A DNA stretch of 45,414 nt from an uncultured bacterium (GCA_903857255.1 CAIODY010000037.1:1-45414), one strand, 5' to 3'. Numbered from the stretch's first letter, positions 3,382 through 20,580 are shown. Numbers and translations are program-made. Notes: generated from the letters alone by a model not told the origin.

Positions 3382-3430
3382 ATATATTTAGCTCTTAGTA
3401 TGCTATACTTTCACTTACCCTTAATACTTC

Positions 3431-3466
3431 GTTAATCTTTTAGTAACAAAGCACTTCGACCTTTGC
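3431..3466 (+). promoter_or_regulatory. Pho-box-like direct repeat and -7 element
   Basis: Half-sites GTTAATC (3431-3437) and AGTAACA (3442-3448) are separated by TTTT, an 11-bp repeat period. Exactly 9 bp later comes GACCTTTGC (3458-3466), which resembles the Bacteroidota -7 element. There is no TTTG -33 box; the first half-site sits where it would be, as expected for a promoter that needs an activator. The same spacing recurs upstream of 5419 and 8322. The ATG of the next gene is only 11 bp after the -7 element. Confidence 0.55.
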
Positions 3467-3476
3467 AAAAACTAAA

Positions 3477-4298
3477 ATGAATTTTAAAAAAGAACTCGAA
3501 GTAGTTGTAATCAGTGATGTTCACTTGGGTACATATGGCAGCCATGCCAAAGAATTATTGCAATATTTAAAATCAATTCGCCCACATACATTAATCCTTA
3601 ATGGTGATATTATTGACATTTGGAATTTTCGCAAAAGTTATTTTCCAGCCGCTCACATGGATGTTTTGCGGCGCATTATGAAAATGGCAAGCAAAGGTAC
3701 AAAGGTCGTTTACATCACCGGCAACCACGATGATATGCTGCGAAAATATACTGATTTGCAATTGGGCAATTTGCAAATCGTAGATAAATATTTACTGGAA
3801 ATTGAAAACAAAAAAGCTTGGATTTTTCATGGCGATGTTTTTGATAACACCACCAAAGGCTCGGCAAAGCTGCTGGCAAAGCTGGGTGGCAAGGGTTACG
3901 ACTGGTTAATTATTGTAAACAGAATGATTAATTGGTTGCTCGAAAAATTTGGAAAAGACAAAATTTCTTTCTCGAAAAAAGTGAAAGACAGTGTAAAAAA
4001 AGCAGTGTCGTGGATTAATAATTTTGAAACCACAGCAGCCGAATTAGCCATTGAAAAAAAATATGACTTTGTGATTTGCGGACATATTCACAAACCGCAA
4101 AACAGAATTATCACCACCGAAAAAGGAAGTGTGCAATATCTGAATAGTGGCGATTGGGTCGAAAACCTTACTGCGCTTGAGTTTAATGAAGGCGAATGGA
4201 AAGTGTACCAATATGAAGAAGATAAAATCAAAACTTTTTTACCCGAAAAAGAAGATGAAAACGAAGCCGATTTTTTGACTAAAATTTTAGCATCCTAA
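3477..4298 (+). CDS. COG2908 metallophosphoesterase, PlcP/LpxH-like
   Basis: This 273-aa calcineurin-fold phosphoesterase has all metal motifs: SDVH (Asp14, His16), NGDIID (Asp44, Asp47), GNHD (82-85), HGD (118-120) and GHIH (202-205). Databases often label the family UDP-2,3-diacylglucosamine diphosphatase. However, E. coli-type LpxH has GNRD where this protein has GNHD, and the region 135-185 plus the end motif SGDWVENLTALEF recall the PlcP phospholipase C group that strips phospholipid headgroups under phosphate starvation. That comparison is from memory, without an alignment. A glycosyltransferase follows 6 bp later, the arrangement known for PlcP-Agt lipid-remodelling operons. LpxH function in lipid A synthesis remains the alternative. 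No signal peptide is seen; it probably acts at the inner face of the membrane. Confidence 0.85.
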   Translation: MNFKKELEVVVISDVHLGTYGSHAKELLQYLKSIRPHTLILNGDIIDIWNFRKSYFPAAHMDVLRRIMKMASKGTKVVYITGNHDDMLRKYTDLQLGNLQIVDKYLLEIENKKAWIFHGDVFDNTTKGSAKLLAKLGGKGYDWLIIVNRMINWLLEKFGKDKISFSKKVKDSVKKAVSWINNFETTAAELAIEKKYDFVICGHIHKPQNRIITTEKGSVQYLNSGDWVENLTALEFNEGEWKVYQYEEDKIKTFLPEKEDENEADFLTKILAS

Positions 4299-4304
4299 TT
4301 TACT

Positions 4305-5333
4305 ATGAAAATATTTTATGCCGTACAAGCTACAGGCAATGGGCATTTGAGCAGAGCTACTCAATTATATCCACACTTAAAAAAGTTTGGTGAAGTTGAT
4401 TTTTTTGTAAGCGGAAGCAACTCGAATTTAGATTATCCATTTCCAGTAAAATACCGCAGCGATGGATGGAGCCTGCATTACAGCAAATGCGGCGGTTTAA
4501 ATTATTGGGATATTGTGAAAAATACAAAACCTGCCCATCTTTATAAAGATGCAGCAGCATTGCCTTTGAAGCAATATGATGTGGTAATAAATGATTTCGA
4601 TTTTATTACTTCTATTGGATGTAAAATGCAAAAAGTGCCTTCGGTGCAGTTGGGGCATCAGGCAAGTTTTCAATCTGATTTAACGCCACGACCTGCGAAG
4701 AAAAATTATTTGGGCGAAATTATTTTGAAACATTACGCCAAAGCCACACAGCATATAGGTTTGCACTTTCAACCGTACGACAATTTTATTTTTCCACCTG
4801 TGGTAAAACAAGAATTGATGAATCAAGAAGTGTTAGATTTAAACCACGTAACCGTTTACCTGCCTTCATTTCAGCAACATTGCTTGCATGATGCTTTTAG
4901 AAAATTGAAAGACATTCCGTTTCATTGGTTTTTAAATGGTGTTGAAAAACCTTACACCGAAAACAACATTACTTACTACCCTGTGAACCAAAATATGTTT
5001 AACAAAAGTTTACTCACTTGCCACGGATTGATTACTGGTGGCGGATTTGAAACACCTTCCGAAGCTTTGTTTTTAGGAAAGCGATTGATGAGCATTCCTA
5101 TTCGTAATCATTACGAACAACAATGTAATGCAGCAGCATTGCAGCAAATGGGCATTTGTGTGTTGGAAGAGGCAGATGAATATTTTGCAAAAAATATCGA
5201 AACATGGTATTTGGCAAATCCACCGAAAGCCGCTGTGAAAGCTAACAATATTGCTACAACTTTAGAATATTTGTTTGATACTTTTCCCTATCATCAAAAA
5301 GAAGAAGCACACGAAATGGCATTGTTTGTTTAA
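4305..5333 (+). CDS. Glycosyltransferase, GT28/GT1-like fold
   Basis: The 342-aa protein has a GT-B layout. Its N-terminal nucleotide-fold begins IFYAVQATGNGHLSRA, with the glycine/His loop typical of MurG/UGT relatives (the MJ1255-like family). Its C-terminal donor-site region contains HGLITGGGFETPSEALFLG and then PIRNHYEQQCNA. No membrane segment or signal peptide is visible. The donor sugar and acceptor cannot be read from the sequence. It is 6 bp downstream of the PlcP-like phosphoesterase and clearly in its operon. If that gene releases diacylglycerol, this enzyme could add a sugar to make a phosphorus-free glycolipid, as GT28 diglyceride glycosyltransferases do. That pathway is an inference from context. 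Confidence 0.85.
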   Translation: MKIFYAVQATGNGHLSRATQLYPHLKKFGEVDFFVSGSNSNLDYPFPVKYRSDGWSLHYSKCGGLNYWDIVKNTKPAHLYKDAAALPLKQYDVVINDFDFITSIGCKMQKVPSVQLGHQASFQSDLTPRPAKKNYLGEIILKHYAKATQHIGLHFQPYDNFIFPPVVKQELMNQEVLDLNHVTVYLPSFQQHCLHDAFRKLKDIPFHWFLNGVEKPYTENNITYYPVNQNMFNKSLLTCHGLITGGGFETPSEALFLGKRLMSIPIRNHYEQQCNAAALQQMGICVLEEADEYFAKNIETWYLANPPKAAVKANNIATTLEYLFDTFPYHQKEEAHEMALFV

Positions 5334-5364
5334 TGTTTCCAAAATAAACTAACCATAGCTTTTA

Positions 5365-5400
5365 GGTAACATTTCGATAATATTAACTTTCGACTTTTGC
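5365..5400 (+). promoter_or_regulatory. Pho-box-like direct repeat and -7 element
   Basis: Half-sites GGTAACA (5365-5371) and GATAATA (5376-5382) flank a TTTC spacer. After 9 bp comes GACTTTTGC (5392-5400). Spacing is identical to the boxes at 3431 and 8242. It lies 18 bp upstream of the lamin-tail lipoprotein gene and would drive the three-gene operon 5419-7913. Confidence 0.55.
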
Positions 5401-5418
5401 GGCGAAATAATTAAAGTC

Positions 5419-5988
5419 ATGCAAAAAGTTTTTTACGCAGTCATTTTTTCCATTATCATTTTTTCTGGTTGTACAAAAGATAGAACCTTCACATTCCCAA
5501 CAAATGTAGCTGTTGTTTCATACGATACTACAAAACCTTTCATTGTTGCCAACGAGTTTGTTGCCACCGAAGATGCGAATTCGTGGACGAACGAATTTGG
5601 CAAACAAGCCGATTGGATTGAGTTGTATAATCCATCCAACCACATCATGGATTTTAACACCGAAAATATTTACATCACTGATACTATCGGCATCAAAGAC
5701 AAATTTCAGTTGACACATTTTACCATTGCGCCCAAAGCATTTTTAATGGTTTGTTGCGATGATTCGGCAAGAAATACCGCTACACAAATTCACACCAGTT
5801 TTAGTTTATCAAAGAAGGGTGAGTTTGTTGGAGTTTACAGAAAAAATAATGACGGCAGTTTTACAGCCATGACTGAAAAGCCTTTTGCAGCGCAGACTGC
5901 AGGCGTAAGCACAGGCATGTATCCTGATGGAAGTGGCGTATGGTATGGCAATTTAACACCAACACCTGGTGCATCTAATCATCAATAA
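5419..5988 (+). CDS. Lamin-tail-domain lipoprotein
   Basis: The 189-aa precursor has a lipoprotein signal ending FSGC, with Cys18 as the lipidation site and a KD pair after it. The mature part (about 37-150) matches a lamin-tail domain, an Ig-like beta sandwich: FVATEDANSWTNEFGKQADW then IELYNPSNHIMDF, and later a FTIAPKAFLMVCCD strand. Bacterial lamin-tail domains are found in secreted or surface proteins, sometimes next to nucleases or phosphatases. Here the domain stands alone, so it is more likely a binding module than an enzyme. It is the first gene of an operon with the beta-propeller gene 31 bp downstream and a porin. The function is unknown. Confidence 0.82.
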   Translation: MQKVFYAVIFSIIIFSGCTKDRTFTFPTNVAVVSYDTTKPFIVANEFVATEDANSWTNEFGKQADWIELYNPSNHIMDFNTENIYITDTIGIKDKFQLTHFTIAPKAFLMVCCDDSARNTATQIHTSFSLSKKGEFVGVYRKNNDGSFTAMTEKPFAAQTAGVSTGMYPDGSGVWYGNLTPTPGASNHQ

Positions 5989-6019
5989 TTTCTTTCAAAA
6001 ATTTCATCTAATAATTATC

Positions 6020-6736
6020 ATGAAAAAAATATTTTTCGCAGCACCGTTTGTTGTGTTGCTTTCATTTATTCCGATTCAAAAAATAAAATTCAACAAAGCT
6101 GTAACGGTGGATGTGTTGGAACCATCAGACATTTGTTTGGCTGCCGACAACCAAAATTTTTATGTAGCTGGCAACCGTGGAATGATTGCAAAAGTTACTC
6201 CCGAAGGAAAAGTGATTAACTCGTATGACAATGCTGGAGCGGATTACGAAGGTGTTACTTTACTTGGTAATGATTTGTATGTGGTGGATGAAACCTATCG
6301 CCGAGTGGATAAATTTGATGCTACTACTTTGAAAAAAATTAGCTCGGTTTATTTACGCGACAATGGCGGCATGAACAAATCGTTTGAAGGTATTACTTAC
6401 AATCCTGAAAGAAAAATTTTCATCACCATTACTGAAAGTCCTGTTTCCATTCATGAATATAATGAAGAGTGGTTTGAAAAAAATGTGATAGACGAAACTG
6501 CTTTTAAAGAAGCGTCTTCTATCCTTTATCACAAAGGGTTTGTATGGATTTTGAGTGATGAAAAACGCACTGTTTATCAAGTAAATCAAAACGATTATTC
6601 CATCATTAATCAATGGCAAATTCCTGTTTTAAATCCTGAAGGAATTTGTTTTGATGCCAACGAAAACTTGATTATTCAATCAGATGATAGACAAACCATT
6701 TACACCTTTTCACCATTAAATTACCATGCAAAATAA
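6020..6736 (+). CDS. SdiA-regulated family beta-propeller protein
   Basis: The product is 238 aa from the ATG at 6020. Longer frames reach 5969 but add no signal-like sequence and overlap the preceding gene. From 6020 the N-terminus MKKIFFAAPFVVLLSFIP is a good export signal or membrane anchor. Repeating blades contain ADNQNFYVAGNRGMIAKV, YDNAGADYEGVTL and NPEGICFDANENLIIQSD. This pattern fits the SdiA-regulated (YjiK/YncE-like, PF06977) family, which folds as a phytase-like propeller. No catalytic residues can be assigned with confidence. Its last 11 bases overlap the porin gene, so the two are translationally coupled. A role as a periplasmic partner of the porin or as a weak phosphoesterase is possible but unproven. 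Confidence 0.8.
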   Translation: MKKIFFAAPFVVLLSFIPIQKIKFNKAVTVDVLEPSDICLAADNQNFYVAGNRGMIAKVTPEGKVINSYDNAGADYEGVTLLGNDLYVVDETYRRVDKFDATTLKKISSVYLRDNGGMNKSFEGITYNPERKIFITITESPVSIHEYNEEWFEKNVIDETAFKEASSILYHKGFVWILSDEKRTVYQVNQNDYSIINQWQIPVLNPEGICFDANENLIIQSDDRQTIYTFSPLNYHAK

Positions 6737-7913
6737 AAATTTACTTTCGCTTGCAATATTGATTGCTACTGTGTTTGCAGTCAATTCAACCCAAGCACAA
6801 TTTACAGTTGTGGGCAGAAATTCTGTATCAGAAATTTCGGGTTGGTTCACACCAATTTACAATTTCAGATTTTATAATCCTGAATTGCCTAACAACGACC
6901 ATGCAAAAATAAATTCAAAAGATGCACTTGGTGTTGATTATGCTCGATTTACTTTGAATGGAAAAATCAGAGGCAAATTTGAATATTCATTCGAGTATGA
7001 TTTAGCCAGCACATTTGCTGGAAACACTGATGTAACGGCATCTCCAGTAACCGATGCAAATTTAACTTATACAGGTTGTAAATTTTTCAACGTAAAAGTT
7101 GGCTACATGAAAGTGCCATTTTCAATGGGCTCGATGATTACCGAAAAATACTCGGCGTTTGAAGGCAGACCCGAAGTGGTTCGTTCCGGATTTTTTAGTC
7201 GCCGCGATGCAGGCGTGATGTTGTTCAAAGATTTTTTGAATCAACGATTAAATGTGTCGGCTGGCATTTATAGCGGCATGGGCGAATACATTTGGTATGG
7301 CGCAACGGATGCGATTGCACAACCCGAATATATGGCTCGTGTTACATACAGCTATCCTTCAAAAGTTCGTGAACGTGAAGTTGATTTGAACAGTACGCCA
7401 GTGCCGCAATTTCGTATTGGTGTAAATGGTTCTTACAACAAACGCGATACAACAATTGATGGCGGACACAATGTTGGAAGTTCAACTCCACTAACTTATA
7501 TCAAAGGCGAAAAATATGGCTATGGTGCTGATTTTACTTTCTTCTACAACAATTTTTCGTTTCAAGTTGAAGCCGACCAATTCCGTTATCAGCCTGCTGA
7601 TTTAACCATGATTCCAGTAAATTCAAATGGGAATATTTTGACAAAATATTTCAGAGGTGGTGGTTGGTATGGTCAGTTAAATTATTTTTGCCCGAAATTA
7701 AAATCATCATTTTCTGTTCGCTACGACAATATAAATGTGAATGATGCGGTGAAAGGCGACAATGGAAATACAGTAAGTTATTCGTACCAATATTATTTCA
7801 ACTCTTACAAAACGGTGTTCAGAATGCAGTATTGGCAACGCTTACACGATGTTGATACCCATCTGCCTTTAGAAAATGACCAATTAAGAATTGGATTTCA
7901 ATTCTTGTTTTAA
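6726..7913 (+). CDS. Phosphate-selective porin O/P family outer-membrane porin
   Basis: The 395-aa precursor has a signal peptide probably cut after TQAQ (residues 1-24 or 25). The mature chain alternates polar and aromatic residues, as in a beta barrel. It ends in aromatic Phe (QLRIGFQFLF), the outer-membrane insertion signal. Family hallmarks are DYARFTLNGKIRGKFEYSFE near the N-terminus and VKVGYMKVPFSMGSMITEKY in the middle. OprO/OprP proteins take up phosphate or polyphosphate in Pseudomonas, but in Bacteroidota the family is broad and selectivity cannot be read from sequence. It is the last gene of the lamin-tail operon and is followed by a bidirectional terminator at 7944. Confidence 0.88.
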   Translation: MQNKNLLSLAILIATVFAVNSTQAQFTVVGRNSVSEISGWFTPIYNFRFYNPELPNNDHAKINSKDALGVDYARFTLNGKIRGKFEYSFEYDLASTFAGNTDVTASPVTDANLTYTGCKFFNVKVGYMKVPFSMGSMITEKYSAFEGRPEVVRSGFFSRRDAGVMLFKDFLNQRLNVSAGIYSGMGEYIWYGATDAIAQPEYMARVTYSYPSKVREREVDLNSTPVPQFRIGVNGSYNKRDTTIDGGHNVGSSTPLTYIKGEKYGYGADFTFFYNNFSFQVEADQFRYQPADLTMIPVNSNGNILTKYFRGGGWYGQLNYFCPKLKSSFSVRYDNINVNDAVKGDNGNTVSYSYQYYFNSYKTVFRMQYWQRLHDVDTHLPLENDQLRIGFQFLF

Positions 7914-7943
7914 TAAAAATTGAAACAAAATTTTTCATCAAAA

Positions 7944-7972
7944 AAAGCCTTGTGATTTTTTCGCAGGGCTTT
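7944..7972. terminator. Bidirectional rho-independent terminator
   Basis: A 9-bp stem AAAGCCTTG / CAGGGCTTT (one G-U pair) has an 11-nt loop. On the minus strand the stem is followed by a run of seven T; on the plus strand by CATTTT. It ends the porin operon and, read the other way, the 34-aa peptide gene at 8011-8115. Confidence 0.75.
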
Positions 7973-7992
7973 CATTTTGAAAGATGTCAAGA

Positions 7993-8016
7993 AACTAATT
8001 TTGTACTAAATTAGTT
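7993..8016. repeat. Perfect 9-bp inverted repeat
   Basis: AACTAATTT and AAATTAGTT flank a 6-nt loop. The right arm covers the TAA stop of the small minus-strand gene. It is AT-only apart from one pair and has no T tail, so it may stabilise a 3' end or bind a protein. Confidence 0.5.
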
Positions 8017-8115
8017 CACTTCTTTGTTCATCATTTTGGCTGCAAGCATTGCTGCTAAAATGATGGCAGCAATAAAAAAAGTAGCTAACGGAGAAATTAA
8101 TTTGTGTTGCATCAT
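8011..8115 (-). CDS. 34-aa single-pass membrane peptide (putative)
   Basis: This frame is shorter than usual gene-calling limits. It reads MMQHKLISPL, then a hydrophobic stretch ATFFIAAIILAAMLAA, then KMMNKEVN and TAA. The layout is one transmembrane helix with a charged C-terminal tail, like known small regulatory membrane proteins. Support for a real gene: an upstream CAACTTTG element (8134-8141, minus strand) 18 bp from the ATG; a T-rich terminator 40 bp downstream on the same strand at 7944; and no other gene to explain a minus-strand terminator there. It lies between the porin operon and the response-regulator gene. The function is unknown; a partner role for either neighbour is only a guess. 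Confidence 0.5.
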   Translation of the reverse strand: MMQHKLISPLATFFIAAIILAAMLAAKMMNKEVN

Positions 8116-8208
8116 CAGTTTTTTTTGTTGCTACAAAGTTGTAACGCCAACATGAAGCCAATATTAAGCCCAAATTATTTTACCATGAAACCTTGATGAA
8201 TGCTAATT

Positions 8209-8277
8209 CGTAACAATTATTTCAATTTTAATTATTGCGAACGTAACCTTTACGTAACATAGCTAATTGAACTTTGC
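8209..8277 (+). promoter_or_regulatory. Autoregulatory-looking promoter of the response regulator
   Basis: CGTAAC occurs at 8209, 8242 and 8253, i.e. 33 and 11 bp apart, all on one helical face. The proximal pair CGTAACC (8242-8248) and CGTAACA (8253-8259) flank TTTA. Nine bp later comes GAACTTTGC (8269-8277). OmpR/PhoB-family regulators bind 11-bp direct repeats, so this is a likely binding site for the protein encoded just downstream. Confidence 0.6.
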
Positions 8278-8321: not shown

Positions 8322-9011
8322 ATGTTAGCAAAGAAAAAAATTTTGATTGCCGATGATGAAAAAGATATTGTCGAATTTCTACAATATACTTTTGAAAATG
8401 TAGGTTTTGAAGTGATTGCTTGTAAAGATGGCATTCAAGCTTTGAAGCAAGCTAAAGTGCATCATCCTGATATTATTTTGCTCGACATCATGATGCCAAA
8501 CTTAGAAGGGACAAGCGTTTGCGAACAATTGCGAAAGTTGGATGAATTTAAAAACACACCGATTGTTTTTTTAACAGCACGAAATAATGAAGAGACAGAA
8601 GTGAATGCTTTTGAAATTGGCGCCGATGATTTTATTGCCAAACCCATCAAACCAAAAGCGTTGGTTTCAAGAATTAACAAATTACTTTTAGCAAAAAATG
8701 ACAAACAAGAAATTGTTGTCGATAAAAAAATCACCAAAATAAACAGTGCCGAAATTGACCACGAAACTTATACTTTATATTTCAAGAAAAAGGCTGTAGA
8801 GCTTGCCCGTAAAGAGTTTCAGTTGGTAGATATGTTAGCATCAAAACCAGGAAAAGTGTTTACTCGAAAACAAATTTTCGATAAAATTTGGGGACAAAAT
8901 TTAGCGATGGGCGATAGAACGATTGATGTGCATGTAAGAAAAATCAGAGTAAAAACTTCGGATGATTTTATCAAAACGGTGAAAGGTGTTGGATTTAAAA
9001 TCGAAGCGTAA
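8322..9011 (+). CDS. OmpR/PhoB-family response regulator
   Basis: This 229-aa transcription factor has a receiver domain (1-120) with Asp11/Asp12, phospho-acceptor Asp55 in ILLDIMMP, Thr85 and Lys107. A winged-helix DNA-binding domain follows (about 135-229), with LARKEFQLVDMLASKPGKVF and the recognition-helix region MGDRTIDVHVRKIR. No histidine kinase gene is adjacent, so the partner is elsewhere; the hybrid kinase at 18283 has its own receiver and is not an obvious match. Its promoter carries 11-bp direct repeats shared with the operons at 3477 and 5419, so it may control them and itself. Assignment as the PhoB orthologue is an inference. It is not PorX, which carries a C-terminal PglZ-type domain instead of a winged helix. 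Confidence 0.92.
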   Translation: MLAKKKILIADDEKDIVEFLQYTFENVGFEVIACKDGIQALKQAKVHHPDIILLDIMMPNLEGTSVCEQLRKLDEFKNTPIVFLTARNNEETEVNAFEIGADDFIAKPIKPKALVSRINKLLLAKNDKQEIVVDKKITKINSAEIDHETYTLYFKKKAVELARKEFQLVDMLASKPGKVFTRKQIFDKIWGQNLAMGDRTIDVHVRKIRVKTSDDFIKTVKGVGFKIEA

Positions 9012-9100: not shown

Positions 9101-11938
9101 TTATTGTTTTACAAATTTTGTAGTGTACTTGAAACCATTGTCATCAGTTGCTTTGATGAAGTAAACACCATTTGATAAAGTAGAAATATCGATAGTTATG
9201 TAGGGCGAATTATGAATGATGGATGCTTCGTTCCTCAGCACGACACTGCCCAACATATTTACCACTTCCACTTTTTCAATTCTTAATTCATCATTCTTAA
9301 TTCTTAATTCAGTGCTTGCTGGATTTGGATAAATTGATAATTGCTCATTGCTATTTGTTAATTGCTCAATGCCTGTTGTACTGTTGGTTGTGAAATTATT
9401 TTGAGCGGAAAAATTACTCAAATTTCCACCACCACAATTGCTTTGAATTTGATAATCATAAATAGTAGATGGTGTTAAACCACTGATGGTGATTGAAGTG
9501 TAGCCTGTTGAAGCAGTTGACCAAGTTGAAGCGGTTGATGGTTTGTATTCCACATTATAGCTCGTTGCATTGCTCACCCCTTGCCAATTTATTTTAGCAG
9601 AAGTGGCTGAAATATTGGTAACATTTATCAAACTATTTGGCGCATCGCAATTGTTGGTGGCTAAAGTTACAAAGGGCAAAGCGGCTGAAAAGCTACTGAT
9701 ATTGCCGCTTCCACAGTTTGATTGCACCATGAATTGATAATTGGTGTTGGGTGTTAAACCAGTTAATGCGTAGAAATTTGTTGCACAAACAATGGTTGTC
9801 CAAGTGCCAGTTCCTGTTTGTTCGTAAGATAAATTGTAGTTTAAAATGCCACCAACAATTGCCCAATTTAACTGCGCCGATGTGCTGGTAATGCTTGATG
9901 CAGAAAGGCTTTGTGGCACACCGCAAGTAATGATGCTTGCCAAAGTGAAGAAAGAAATTGGCGAAGAATAATTGCTCAAATTTCCACCACCACAGTTAGC
10001 TTGCACTTGAAAATCATAACTGGTTGCAGCAGCCAACCCTGTTAATAGATAAGCATTTGAAGCACTTACAACTGTTGTCCAAGTTGAACCTGATGATAAT
10101 TTATATTGCACATTATAACTTGTTGCGCTGGCAACATTGTTCCAATTTAATTGTGCTGTTGAAGCTGTAATACTTGATGCGGAAAGGCTTGTAGGTACAT
10201 TGCAAACTGGTGGTGCAGCAGTTGTAAAAGAATCTTTTGTTGAATAATTACTCGAATTTCCACCACCACAATTGCTCTGAATTTGAAAATAGTATTTTGT
10301 TGAAAACGATAAACCGCTTAATGCGTATGCGTTTGTGGCACTTACAGCAGTAGTCCAACTGCCTGCGTTGTATATTTTATATTGCACATTATAACTCACT
10401 GCGCTTGCAACTGCTGACCAATTCAGCGTTGCAGAATTGTAAGTAATGGATGTTGCATTTAATCCTGTGGGAACATTGCATACAGGAATTAATGTAGTAA
10501 AGGAATCCGCAACTGAATAGTTGCTCAAATTTCCGCTGCCACAATTACACTGAATCTGAAAATAATATTTTGTGTTAGCATTCAAGCCAGTCAATGAATA
10601 TGAGTTAGTTGCACTTACAACAGTAGTCCAACTTCCTGCTGAAAATATTTTGTATTGCACATTATAATTGGTTGCACCGCTCACTGCATTCCAATTTAAT
10701 GTTGCAGAATTTGAAGTGATAGCTGTTGCTGAAAGATTTGTTGGAACACCGCATGGTGTAAGGGTTGTAAACGAATCAATGGTGGAGTAATTACTCAAAT
10801 TTCCACCGCCGCAATTGCTTTGAATTTGGAAATAGTATTTGGTTGATGGTGTTAAACTACTTAATGCTTGCGTATTAGTTGTAGCTACAACAGTAGTCCA
10901 ACTTCCTGCATTGTAAACTTTGTATTGCACATTATAATTCACAGCACTTGCAACGCTACTCCAACTTAAAGTAGCTGATGTTGTTGTAATCGAAGTGGCT
11001 GAAAGTCCGCTGGGGACGCTGCATACAGGGAATGGTGTAGTGAAAGATTGCACAGAAGAATAATTGCTGTTCTGCAAATTGTTGCAGTTCGTTTCAATTT
11101 TCACTTGATAAGTGGCGTTGGAATTTAATCCTGATAAAGTGTAAGAATTGGTTGTGCTTGTTACAGTTGTCCAAGTTCCACTCGATGATAATTTGTATTG
11201 AATGGTGTATCCGCTTGCGTTCGCAATTGCAGTCCAGTTCAAGGTTGCAGCGTTGGATGTGATGTTGCTAATTGTAAAATTCAACACCGTATCGCATGGA
11301 ATAACATGCCCATTTGCAGTAACTTTTATATCATCAAATCGATAAGTGCCATTGCCTGCTGAAACAATGTAAGTGCTCCATTTAAATTGCAAAGCCGCAT
11401 GGTTGCTGGCATTCACGGGCAATCGAATTGGCGAACCATTATTTACTAAACCCCAAACACTGCCGCCTGCGCTTTCGGTGTGTGGCAACATAGCCCACGT
11501 AGAACCATTGTTGATGCTGTAATACAACATGGGCACAGCCGAACCGCTGGTAGTAAAATTGGTCGAAATTCTTGAAGCCCAAATTAAATAAATACCTGTA
11601 TCACCAACGGTTGAAATACTGGGTGAAATTAAATCGTAAGTGCCTGTGGTGTCGGAATTATTTTTGATAACCAAATTGTTCAAACCCGAGGCTGTATCAG
11701 CAGTTGTGGTGTATCCGCTGGATGAATTGCCGCCTGTAGTATCAATGAAATAGCCGATGGAAGAATCTAACGGAAATGGTTTTATCATGGTGAAACCCAT
11801 TGGTTTTTGATTTCCCAAAAAATAAAAATGACGGATGGTGTCGAAATCTTGTTTGTATAAAATGCTTTGTGCTTGCACATTTTTTAAAACCAAAATAGCC
11901 ACCATGCACAAAATGATTTTCAGGAAATTGTATTTCAT
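9101..11938 (-). CDS. Secreted FN3-repeat protein with T9SS type A sorting domain
   Basis: The 945-aa protein has a signal peptide (MKYNFLKIILCMVAILVLKN, cut near VQAQ). Next comes an N-terminal sandwich of about 185 residues resembling choice-of-anchor J/MAM domains (QDFDTI at the start, FDDIKV at the end). Seven fibronectin type III repeats of about 90 aa follow, each with TSATLNW, a YNVQYK-like strand, a TW core and L.P.T.Y.F.IQSNCGGGN. The C-terminus (about 870-945) is a type A sorting domain: IYPNP, VVNMLG, LSNGVYFIKA, KFVKQ. It is probably exported through T9SS and attached to the surface, as an adhesin or matrix protein; no enzyme domain is visible. Two heptamer arrays flank the YPNP codons. 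It is separated from its upstream neighbour by a terminator, so it has its own promoter. Confidence 0.92.
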   Translation of the reverse strand: MKYNFLKIILCMVAILVLKNVQAQSILYKQDFDTIRHFYFLGNQKPMGFTMIKPFPLDSSIGYFIDTTGGNSSSGYTTTADTASGLNNLVIKNNSDTTGTYDLISPSISTVGDTGIYLIWASRISTNFTTSGSAVPMLYYSINNGSTWAMLPHTESAGGSVWGLVNNGSPIRLPVNASNHAALQFKWSTYIVSAGNGTYRFDDIKVTANGHVIPCDTVLNFTISNITSNAATLNWTAIANASGYTIQYKLSSSGTWTTVTSTTNSYTLSGLNSNATYQVKIETNCNNLQNSNYSSVQSFTTPFPVCSVPSGLSATSITTTSATLSWSSVASAVNYNVQYKVYNAGSWTTVVATTNTQALSSLTPSTKYYFQIQSNCGGGNLSNYSTIDSFTTLTPCGVPTNLSATAITSNSATLNWNAVSGATNYNVQYKIFSAGSWTTVVSATNSYSLTGLNANTKYYFQIQCNCGSGNLSNYSVADSFTTLIPVCNVPTGLNATSITYNSATLNWSAVASAVSYNVQYKIYNAGSWTTAVSATNAYALSGLSFSTKYYFQIQSNCGGGNSSNYSTKDSFTTAAPPVCNVPTSLSASSITASTAQLNWNNVASATSYNVQYKLSSGSTWTTVVSASNAYLLTGLAAATSYDFQVQANCGGGNLSNYSSPISFFTLASIITCGVPQSLSASSITSTSAQLNWAIVGGILNYNLSYEQTGTGTWTTIVCATNFYALTGLTPNTNYQFMVQSNCGSGNISSFSAALPFVTLATNNCDAPNSLINVTNISATSAKINWQGVSNATSYNVEYKPSTASTWSTASTGYTSITISGLTPSTIYDYQIQSNCGGGNLSNFSAQNNFTTNSTTGIEQLTNSNEQLSIYPNPASTELRIKNDELRIEKVEVVNMLGSVVLRNEASIIHNSPYITIDISTLSNGVYFIKATDDNGFKYTTKFVKQ
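9277..9311. repeat. Heptamer array, YAATTCT type
   Basis: Five exact 7-nt units: CAATTCT, TAATTCA, TCATTCT, TAATTCT, TAATTCA. They lie inside the FN3 gene just after the YPNP codons and encode a 7-residue peptide repeat (ELRIKND, ELRIEKV). Confidence 0.85.
9332..9373. repeat. Heptamer array, AATTGCT type
   Basis: Six 7-nt units: AATTGAT, AATTGCT, CATTGCT, ATTTGTT, AATTGCT, CAATGCC. They encode the linker GIEQLTNSNEQLS directly before IYPNP in the FN3 gene. Related arrays occupy the same place in the other three type A genes. Confidence 0.85.
9400..11290. repeat. Seven tandem FN3-coding repeats
   Basis: Direct DNA repeats of roughly 270-280 bp encode the FN3 domains. Blocks such as the codons for SNCGGGNLSNYS and YNVQYK recur nearly unchanged, so the copies are probably young or homogenised by recombination. 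Confidence 0.75.
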
Positions 11939-18161: not shown

Positions 18162-18321
18162 AAAACACATAGGCACATAGAAAATAAAAAATAATCAGGT
18201 TTTAGTTATACTGCTATGTGGAAAATTTATTTTTCTAAGTTGCCCTTGTATTAAACCAAGGATTTAGTTAGAAAAACAACAGTCAAATGCTTTGCATTTT
18301 TCTACTGTGTCTATGTGTTTT
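18162..18321. repeat. Nested palindromic element (MITE/REP-like)
   Basis: The outer arms are AAAACACATAGGCACATAG (18162-18180) and CTACTGTGTCTATGTGTTTT (18302-18321), complementary apart from one mismatch and one extra base. Inside lie a second inverted repeat, TTTTTCTAA (18231-18239) / TTAGAAAAA (18268-18276), and CCTTG/CAAGG within that. The left arm overlaps possible 5' codons of the FG-GAP gene and the right arm forms the last codons of the histidine kinase. The inner hairpin may also end kinase transcription. Confidence 0.65.
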
Positions 18322-20580
18322 AATTTGATTAATAATAATTAAAACTAAGCATAAAATTTCAGAAACTAAATACCCCACAGTAGTTTTAATCATTTCACGA
18401 AACAATTCATCAGGGTCAAATGGTTTGGTAATATAACTGTTGAAGCCAAATGATTTGGTATTGTTTTTTGTGTCCGATGAAGCATCAGCACTCAAAGCAA
18501 TCACGGGTATTTTATTAATTTTCGAATTGGCATGCGCTCTGATTTGTTTGGTGGCTTCATAACCATCCACCAATGGCATTTGCAAATCCATCAACACAAT
18601 ATCATAATCATCATTAGCATTTAATTTATCCAATGCTTCTTGCCCATTCATGGCAAAATCCATTCTGCCCACATTCCATTTCGATAAAAATTGTTTCACC
18701 ACAAAAGCATTGATGTTGTTGTCTTCGGCAACCAATACATTCATTTTATCTAAGTCTTTTTTATACGTTGATTGTTTGATTTTTAAATCGTCATTTAGGG
18801 TAGCACCAATGCCGAATTTCATACTCACATGAAATGTTGAACCTTCATTTAAAGTGCTATCCACCGAAATATTTCCACCTTGCATTTCAATCAATTTCTG
18901 ACTGATGGCTAAACCCAAACCAGTGCCACCATATTTCCTGTTGATTTCCATATTCGCTTGTGTGAAATGTGTAAAGATGGAATCAATATGGTCTGCTGAA
19001 ATACCTATACCAGTATCTTTCACGGTGAAATGAATAATCATTTCAGTGGGTGTTGATTCGGCAATAGAATATTGAATTGACACAAAACCTCTTTCAGTAA
19101 ATTTGATAGCATTGGAAATCAAATTGGTTATAACTTGACTCAATCTCAAATTATCGCCCACCAAATAATTTTTCAAATTATCATCGTGAATTACTTTTAG
19201 TTCTATCTTTTTTTCTAACGCTCTTAATTGATGCGTTAAATAAATATCTTGCACTAACGAACTTAAATTGAAACTCACTTTTGCGAATTCGATTTTCCCT
19301 GATTCGATTTTTGAAAAATCTAAAATGTCATCCACCAATGATTTCAAGTGTTTGGCTGAAAACTCTAACAATTTCAAATATCGTTCTTGGCTCGCAGTTG
19401 GATGTTCGGCTAATAACAAATGAGCAATGCCAATCACACCATTTATTGGTGTACGGATTTCATGACTCATGGTAGATAAGAAAAGTGATTTAGCTAAATC
19501 AGCTTGTTCAGCTTTATCTTTTTCGTAGTTTGCCACTTTAACATCTTCCAGCGCATTCTTTAAAGCATGCTCCGATTTTTTTCGGGTTTCAACTTCCTGT
19601 TCTAATAATTGCTGATGATGATTCGATTGATTAATCAATCGAGCCACTTCACCGAATTCAGATTTGTTGTCTTGCAAATCTTCAATCGAATCATTATTGC
19701 CTTCGTGCAAGGCAGTTTCAATTTTTGATAAGGGTGTATTTACCCAGCGATTAAATAAATAAAACAGCAACATCATTAATACAATACAACCATTAACGAA
19801 TAGAAAAAGGGAATCGCTAAATAGTTGATTGAACTTAATAAGTATGGAGGAGGTTTTTTTTACTCTAAAAACAGCAGCAACCTTTCCGTTGATATCTTGA
19901 ATTGGTTCGTAATAAATTATGTCACCCGTTTTTGTATTAAGCTGTGCTGCTTGATTTTGAAAATCATTTTTGCCAATTAATTCAATAGTTGTTGAAGTAA
20001 TCATGTTTTGAATTTCAAACAATTTATTGTTATCAATCAATTCACCAACTACCATATAACCACTTGGTTTGTTTTTGTGTTCAGCATCAACAGATGATTG
20101 AATAGGCGAAGTGATTACCCAAATTAATTGATTATTATAGCTGATGAAAAAATTTCTTTGGTGATGATTATCGAATAGCTTTTTGTTATTTTCATTATTG
20201 CAATCGAACCAGTTTTCATTTTTGGCAGTTTTAATATCTTTGAAATAAATAGGATGCATTTCATTATTAAGCACAGTAACATATTTCACACCTTGTTTCA
20301 TAGCAGCTTCATTAAAGCTACCGTTCATCCATGCAGAATCTTTTCGGCTATGAGCAAAATCAGCCATTTCATCCCAACGTGTATCATCATCAATAAATAC
20401 TTTTAAAAAATTCAAATTGTTATCAATCGCCTTTCTAACTTCTTTTCTGTTCTCATTCATTCGTTGCTCTAAAATCACTTTTGATTTATCAGTAACCGTA
20501 TAAATAAAAAAGGCAACGCTCCCAATAAATAAGATTAAATAAGTAGTTATCAGTAATAAAACTTTACTTCTGATTTTCAT
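18283..20580 (-). CDS. Hybrid sensor histidine kinase / response regulator
   Basis: The 765-aa inner-membrane sensor has TM1 (about 8-28), a periplasmic sensor region (30-250) resembling CHASE4 (RWDEMADFAHSRKDSAWMNG), TM2 (about 257-277) and a coiled linker. A HisKA domain follows with His373 in FLSTMSHEIRTP. The ATPase domain has N-box NLISNAIKF, DTGIGIS and GGTGLGLAIS. The C-terminal receiver has phospho-acceptor Asp665 in IVLMDLQMP and Lys719. There is no DNA-binding domain, so it works by phosphorelay to another protein. The domain ends near 735; the last 30 residues are unusual, and the final 14 or so are encoded by the palindromic element at 18302-18321, as if the original stop was lost. 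The stop is TGA. No partner gene is adjacent. Confidence 0.93.
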   Translation of the reverse strand: MKIRSKVLLLITTYLILFIGSVAFFIYTVTDKSKVILEQRMNENRKEVRKAIDNNLNFLKVFIDDDTRWDEMADFAHSRKDSAWMNGSFNEAAMKQGVKYVTVLNNEMHPIYFKDIKTAKNENWFDCNNENNKKLFDNHHQRNFFISYNNQLIWVITSPIQSSVDAEHKNKPSGYMVVGELIDNNKLFEIQNMITSTTIELIGKNDFQNQAAQLNTKTGDIIYYEPIQDINGKVAAVFRVKKTSSILIKFNQLFSDSLFLFVNGCIVLMMLLFYLFNRWVNTPLSKIETALHEGNNDSIEDLQDNKSEFGEVARLINQSNHHQQLLEQEVETRKKSEHALKNALEDVKVANYEKDKAEQADLAKSLFLSTMSHEIRTPINGVIGIAHLLLAEHPTASQERYLKLLEFSAKHLKSLVDDILDFSKIESGKIEFAKVSFNLSSLVQDIYLTHQLRALEKKIELKVIHDDNLKNYLVGDNLRLSQVITNLISNAIKFTERGFVSIQYSIAESTPTEMIIHFTVKDTGIGISADHIDSIFTHFTQANMEINRKYGGTGLGLAISQKLIEMQGGNISVDSTLNEGSTFHVSMKFGIGATLNDDLKIKQSTYKKDLDKMNVLVAEDNNINAFVVKQFLSKWNVGRMDFAMNGQEALDKLNANDDYDIVLMDLQMPLVDGYEATKQIRAHANSKINKIPVIALSADASSDTKNNTKSFGFNSYITKPFDPDELFREMIKTTVGYLVSEILCLVLIIINQIKTHRHSRKMQSI

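Follow-up and report, generated by a model that had tools for sequence, protein, structure and literature searches.

The question raised by this locus is what three similar promoters, grouped around a gene for a PhoB-type response regulator, respond to and which protein reads them. The window analyzed here is contig C37 in full (45,414 bases), one of the 134 contigs of a Bacteroidota genome of 2.97 Mb; the host appears to be a Chitinophagales bacterium, and isolate names suggest a freshwater habitat. The initial annotation regarded the three sites as Pho-box-like elements of a small local regulon controlled by the regulator encoded at 8322. The first half of this reading is well supported, both by a match at the pst operon and by conservation in relatives: judged from sequence, the three sites are very probably Pho boxes of a Pho regulon that extends over the genome and would be activated under low phosphate through binding of a PhoB-type regulator. 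The second half has to be revised, since the boxes are found on several contigs and it is the regulator encoded on C34, not the 8322 protein, that groups with canonical PhoBs.

Architecture of the three promoters

The three boxes, all on the plus strand and identified from the sequence and the genome scan, are GTTAATC-TTTT-AGTAACA (3431-3448) before the operon of a plcP-like gene and a glycosyltransferase gene, GGTAACA-TTTC-GATAATA (5365-5382) before the gene at 5419, and CGTAACC-TTTA-CGTAACA (8242-8259) in the promoter of the regulator gene itself. Their positions, letters and 4-bp spacers had been reported correctly, and the 9-bp gap between the second half-site and the -7 element is exact in all three cases, the elements being GACCTTTGC (3458-3466), GACTTTTGC (5392-5400) and GAACTTTGC (8269-8277), also on the plus strand. 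A recount of the ungapped alignment of 3433-3466 with 8244-8277 reproduced the 25 identities in 34 positions, and the CGTAAC placed 33 bp upstream of the regulator's box is present as CGTAACA (8209-8215, plus strand), that is, three steps of 11 bp before 8242. The missing -33 TTTG was likewise confirmed, with no TTTG lying 17 to 23 bp upstream of the -7 element.

A point absent from the initial annotation is that the arrays run further upstream in 11-bp steps. The sequence contains a half-site CTTAATA (3420-3426, plus strand) 11 bp before the first half-site of the 3431 box, which reads CTTAATC or CTTAATG in two sister species, and the full array of this promoter is CTTAATA-CTTC-GTTAATC-TTTT-AGTAACA; that of the pstS promoter elsewhere in the genome is CATAACC-TGCG-CTTAACC-TTTT-GATAACA. 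Relative to the -7 consensus TAnnTTTG (PMC9723704), the first T is lost in all five perfect sites of the genome, which also all keep the 9-bp gap, and the A is lost in a weaker site on C109. A weakened -7 element together with the lack of TTTG at the -33 spacing is the look that would be expected of an activator-dependent promoter. The sites consist of at least two 7-bp direct repeats with a 4-bp spacer and an 11-bp period, and they stand in place of the -35 element, at a fixed distance of about 10 bp from the -10 (here -7) element downstream.

Distribution in the genome

A scan of all contigs with TAAYN6RTAAYAN10ANNTTTGC, a pattern derived from the three sites of the window, gave five perfect matches against 0.14 expected under a first-order Markov model of the whole genome, an excess of ~36-fold in which three of the five matches are the window promoters themselves, within 5 kb of one another, and only the two new ones, on C67 and C106, are independent. 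Such a scan for phosphate genes had been suggested together with the sites, and one of the two new matches bears the link out: it lies at C67:14261, 77 bp before the start of pstS, which is followed by pstC, pstA, pstB and phoU. The other, at C106:26050, is just over 60 bp before the gene of a 426-aa outer-membrane protein (porin), whose 85%-identical homolog in the sister genome G001 is located directly upstream of pstS and has a box of its own there. On C56, a second PhoB-like gene has a site with one mismatch upstream, and the sixth site, weaker with two mismatches, is that before a TonB-dependent receptor on C109. Boxes of this kind are present upstream of the phosphate genes pst, phoU and phoB.

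Scanning at up to two mismatches otherwise yields noise (68 matches vs 57 in the reversed control), and no further members of the regulon are therefore claimed. The bare pattern GTAACN6GTAACA was discarded as unspecific; at one mismatch its reversed control gives more matches, and most matches are in coding sequence. The near equality of scan and control at up to two mismatches is what a mere chance likeness of AT-rich promoters would predict, but that explanation is refuted by the exact matches, ~36-fold over expectation and located at phosphate genes, and by the tenfold 11-bp peak described below.

Conservation and periodicity of the arrays

Conservation in relatives was the other check suggested at the outset, and the sites are indeed kept at orthologous promoters. 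Within the genus, the architecture is found at plcP in G001 and G002 and at the 8322-type gene in G002; it is also kept at pstS and the porin gene in G001 and at pstS in G005, which belongs to a second genus. The half-sites are largely retained at these promoters, while spacers and flanks vary. The three perfect matches of G001 are those of pstS, of the porin upstream of pstS, and a third upstream in the same region that precedes a beta-barrel-porin-like ORF; sites with one mismatch are found at plcP, at phoB-b, and ~40 bp before the start of a TonB receptor. At L145 (G001:C57, 1370-2700) we also noticed a beta-barrel-porin-like frame that follows a perfect Pho box and has an in-frame stop in its signal-peptide region, a candidate sequencing error or decayed gene.

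In an alignment of 14 sites, which includes orthologous promoters so that its rows are not fully independent, the half-site score is 3.36 of 4 at offset -11 and 3.00 at -22, compared with ~1.6 at most other offsets, and neither offset played a part in finding the sites. The same periodicity was found in 116 distinct regions upstream of plcP, phoB and pstS homologs, nearly all from Bacteroidota (ten plcP loci are gammaproteobacterial): pairs of half-sites on the same strand occur 71 times at 11 bp, a tenfold peak over the 6.9 expected from shuffles, with harmonics at 22 bp (48 pairs) and 33 bp (28 pairs). The 243 other promoters at the relatives' loci gave 16 pairs at 11 bp for an off-phase mean of 10.7 and a maximum of 24, with no comparably clear peak. 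Outside the genus, the distance between the last half-site and TTTG is mostly 19, 30 or 41 nt, in steps of 11 nt or one helical turn. Boxes are hard to find in many relatives, with an 11-bp pair in only 21 of the 69 regions upstream of plcP outside the genus. No such pair was found upstream of the ten gammaproteobacterial homologs of the 3477 gene, which indicates that gene and box are not inherited or transferred as a unit. These homologs (L238-L246 and L248, mainly from Thiomicrorhabdus) are 43-45% identical to the 3477 protein, and a transfer is possible.

Many ECF sigma factors prefer a -35 element containing AAC, and the GTAAC of the downstream half-site, at its fixed distance from the -7 element, could be taken for such an element instead of a response-regulator site. 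We rejected this reading as highly improbable on account of the phased arrays: half-sites recur at -11 and -22, in relatives the array can be displaced upstream by one or two helical turns (TTTG at 19, 30 or 41 nt), a sigma factor has no need of a phased repeat, and the downstream element is the TTTG of the main sigma factor.

Boxes across Bacteroidia

The exact pattern KTAACAN5KTAACAN10ANNTTTGC was searched in 149 genomes of the order and 246 of the class, ~390 other Bacteroidia genomes. The order scan gave seven sites with none in the reversed control, and the class scan nine with one in the control; since one site is common to both scans, these are 15 distinct sites in total vs one reversed-control match. 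The genes behind them are six TonB receptors (assigned by sequence likeness, not by Pfam scan), five PhoU_div/DUF47 genes (Pfam confirms two, and three are assigned by sequence likeness), one phoB, and one gene each for a T9SS-sorted surface protein, a DUF2490 protein and a CarboxypepD_reg protein. The TonB-receptor site at L262 adjoins genes for DUF47 and PHO4 phosphate-permease proteins, with a response regulator-kinase pair nearby.

These genes bear on whether the sites could be an ArcA-like or general OmpR-family operator unrelated to phosphate. DAP-seq of the PhoP protein of Riemerella anatipestifer, also of the Bacteroidota, gave 583 peaks with TTTAACA as the most conserved letters, which resemble the half-sites found here, and its motif was likened to that of ArcA (PMC9603813). 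Further points for such an operator are that the genome holds only five Trans_reg_C regulators, two with adjacent kinases of their own, and that other OmpR-family proteins, for example E. coli ArcA, bind similar 11-bp repeats. The R. anatipestifer case differs in its 583 peaks, and the main text of that report does not mention pst (PMC9603813); no description of phased arrays or of the promoter distance was seen there. Since the matches stand upstream of pstSCAB-phoU, of phoB and of DUF47 genes, in families that are unrelated, and the control is almost empty, an operator unlinked to phosphate is improbable, and we retain the Pho box as the preferred reading.

Two further observations concern the TonB-receptor loci. 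At L263 (G156:C2), the gene of a TonB receptor with an exact box is followed downstream by a phosphoesterase-like ORF and by a GDPD gene confirmed by Pfam, and the intervening ORFs resemble glycerol kinase and aquaporin; the locus looks like an island for glycerophosphodiester scavenging. Lipoprotein genes directly follow the boxed TonB receptors at L063 (9621-10997), L261 (7457-8872), L262 (7332-8801) and L265 (7525-9063), and their products look like the FI/FII/FIII proteins of the Flavobacterium johnsoniae Pho regulon. No Pfam family was matched by the lipoproteins of L261 and L262 or by the 459-aa lipoprotein of C109.

Which regulator reads the boxes

Only five Trans_reg_C proteins are encoded genome-wide. 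Those on C19 and C43 have an adjacent kinase; the other three, encoded on C34, at 8322 on C37 and on C56, do not and are PhoB-like orphans. The 8322 protein has a receiver and a winged helix, an intact phosphorylation site and a PhoB-type recognition helix. The receiver aspartates, threonine and lysine are kept in all three orphans, and all three have the recognition helix DRTIDVH[IV]RKIR, with one conservative I/V and one D/E difference, so that any of them could bind. They are separated in a midpoint-rooted maximum-likelihood tree, which places the C34 regulator together with PhoBs from other families that are encoded beside phoR or in a pst operon. The 8322 and C56 proteins form a separate clade instead (support 100/100), with long branches and sampled from this genus only, which sets 8322 apart from orthologs of the pst-linked and phoR-linked PhoBs of relatives. 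With each of the two PhoB equivalog models the 8322 protein scores below the curated cut-off (193.9 vs 296.2 and 182.5 vs 270 bits), as do the C34 regulator (221.1 and 213.3) and the pst-linked PhoB of G007. No HATPase match was found near 8322 on C37, the nearest being at 18814. An orphan kinase at ~C132:14227-15261 is 59-62% identical to the phoB-adjacent PhoRs of G005 and G007 and is likely PhoR.

That the 8322 protein governs a small local regulon as its dedicated master, the view of the initial annotation, seems unlikely. The 8322 gene does lie beside two boxes and has a third in its promoter, the receiver and the recognition helix of the protein appear functional, and in G002 an 8322-type gene is linked to the plcP-glycosyltransferase pair with its site positionally conserved. 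However, boxes are also located on C67, C106, C109 and C56, no kinase is adjacent to 8322, and the regulator that groups with phoR- or pst-linked PhoBs is that of C34. Moreover, the boxes of pst, of the porin and of plcP are retained in G001, a 99%-complete assembly without an 8322-type gene, which means that within the genus the boxes are not dependent on 8322. For the genome-wide Pho regulon preferred here, the primary regulator is probably the canonical PhoB of C34, and for 8322 the safer description is that of a regulon member whose product may read the boxes as well. A tentative and rather less probable extension is that the 8322/C56 clade derives from PhoB, has no adjacent kinases and came to be controlled by Pho boxes, in a two-tier response where the C132-C34 pair, as housekeeping PhoR and PhoB, switches on paralogs reading the same boxes; if this is true, secondary PhoB paralogs would reinforce or prolong scavenging and lipid replacement.

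Proposed mechanism and comparison with known systems

We propose that dimers of a PhoB-type regulator would bind tandem 7-bp half-sites, [GT]TAAC[AC], of which each promoter has 2-4 at a period of 11 bp. With the last half-site ending 9 bp before a weakened -7 element (NAnnTTTGC), the bound regulator would substitute for the missing -33 contact and, under phosphate scarcity, recruit the main sigma factor. Besides pstSCAB-phoU, the predicted regulon would comprise genes for porins and for a TonB receptor accompanied by a lipoprotein and a phosphoesterase. It would also include the plcP-like/glycosyltransferase pair, with predicted roles in recycling phospholipids and in glycolipid substitution, the cluster of LTD, phytase-like and Porin_O_P genes, and several regulator genes, 8322 among them. 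A PhoR-like orphan kinase, that of C132, is probably the sensor and C34 PhoB probably the primary regulator, and the 8322 protein would be a Pho-induced paralog that may recognize these boxes too.

Pho regulons are well known in Proteobacteria, Firmicutes and Cyanobacteria. In E. coli the PhoB site replaces the -35 element, and the PhoP box of Bacillus subtilis has TTAACA-type repeats ~11 bp apart, several per promoter. The present sites are similar to the latter in repeat type, spacing and multiplicity, but the B. subtilis box stands in a Gram-positive promoter context and the half-sites here often have G at position 2. The E. coli Pho box has two 7-bp direct repeats, a 4-bp AT-rich spacer and an 11-bp period, ~10 bp before the -10 element (PMC4415409, PMC1906773); repeat geometry, promoter placement and gene logic (pst, phoB, porin) are alike, whereas here the half-site is [GT]TAAC[AC], the core is the Bacteroidota -7 TTTG, and several promoters have three or four half-sites. 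The cyanobacterial SphR box (CTTAACCT), with at least three tandem 8-bp repeats and a 3-bp linker, has the same 11-bp period (PMC1906773) and a half-site close to the CTTAACC of pstS here; it belongs to another phylum and core promoter, and the likeness is one of sequence that does not imply homology of the sites.

In Flavobacterium johnsoniae, low phosphate induces PhoB, PlcP, a glycosyltransferase, TonB receptors with downstream lipoproteins, and LTD nucleases (PMC8115612), gene kinds that resemble those of the window and of the boxed loci, but no wording on a Pho box or binding site was found in that report. Plant-associated Bacteroidetes are said to lack PstSABC (PMC8115612), in contrast to the genome studied here, where it is present. 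The Pho regulon is a known kind of system, and a limited literature search found no description of its operator for Bacteroidota. Bacteroidota are one of the main phyla of fresh water, sea, soil and gut, and a motif with near-zero background would make phosphate regulons readable directly from their genomes; one switch would connect phosphate scavenging, TonB receptors and phospholipid replacement.

Genes of the window

All genes assigned to the boxes are on the plus strand. The first operon contains a calcineurin-type metallophosphoesterase gene (3477-4298; LpxH-like, with a PlcP-like function suggested) and a gene of the MJ1255/VC2487 glycosyltransferase family (4305-5333) with a putative Agt-like role in lipid remodeling. 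The two genes are adjacent in several Chitinophagales families. Assignment of the 3477 protein as LpxH itself was rejected, as C86:3455 scores better (91 vs 56 bits, both below the curated cut-off). The 3477 protein is a metallophosphoesterase distinct from LpxH with a glycosyltransferase encoded next to it, and by analogy the pair resembles PlcP and Agt, a lipid-remodeling pair (PMC4796936), with enzyme activities to match predicted. The cluster at 5419 encodes a lipoprotein with a sub-threshold match to the lamin-tail domain (LTD; 5419-5988), an SdiA-regulated/phytase-like beta-propeller protein (6020-6736) and, as its last gene, a Porin_O_P protein of the phosphate-selective porin family (6726-7913). 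The third box belongs to the orphan PhoB-type response regulator of the divergent paralog clade (8322-9011).

Convergent to the 8322 gene is that of a 945-aa T9SS-sorted protein (9101-11938) with matches to fibronectin III and to the N-terminal domain of purple acid phosphatases. A large ORF at 18283-20580, not adjacent to the 8322 gene, contains a histidine-kinase ATPase domain (PF02518, 18814-19158).
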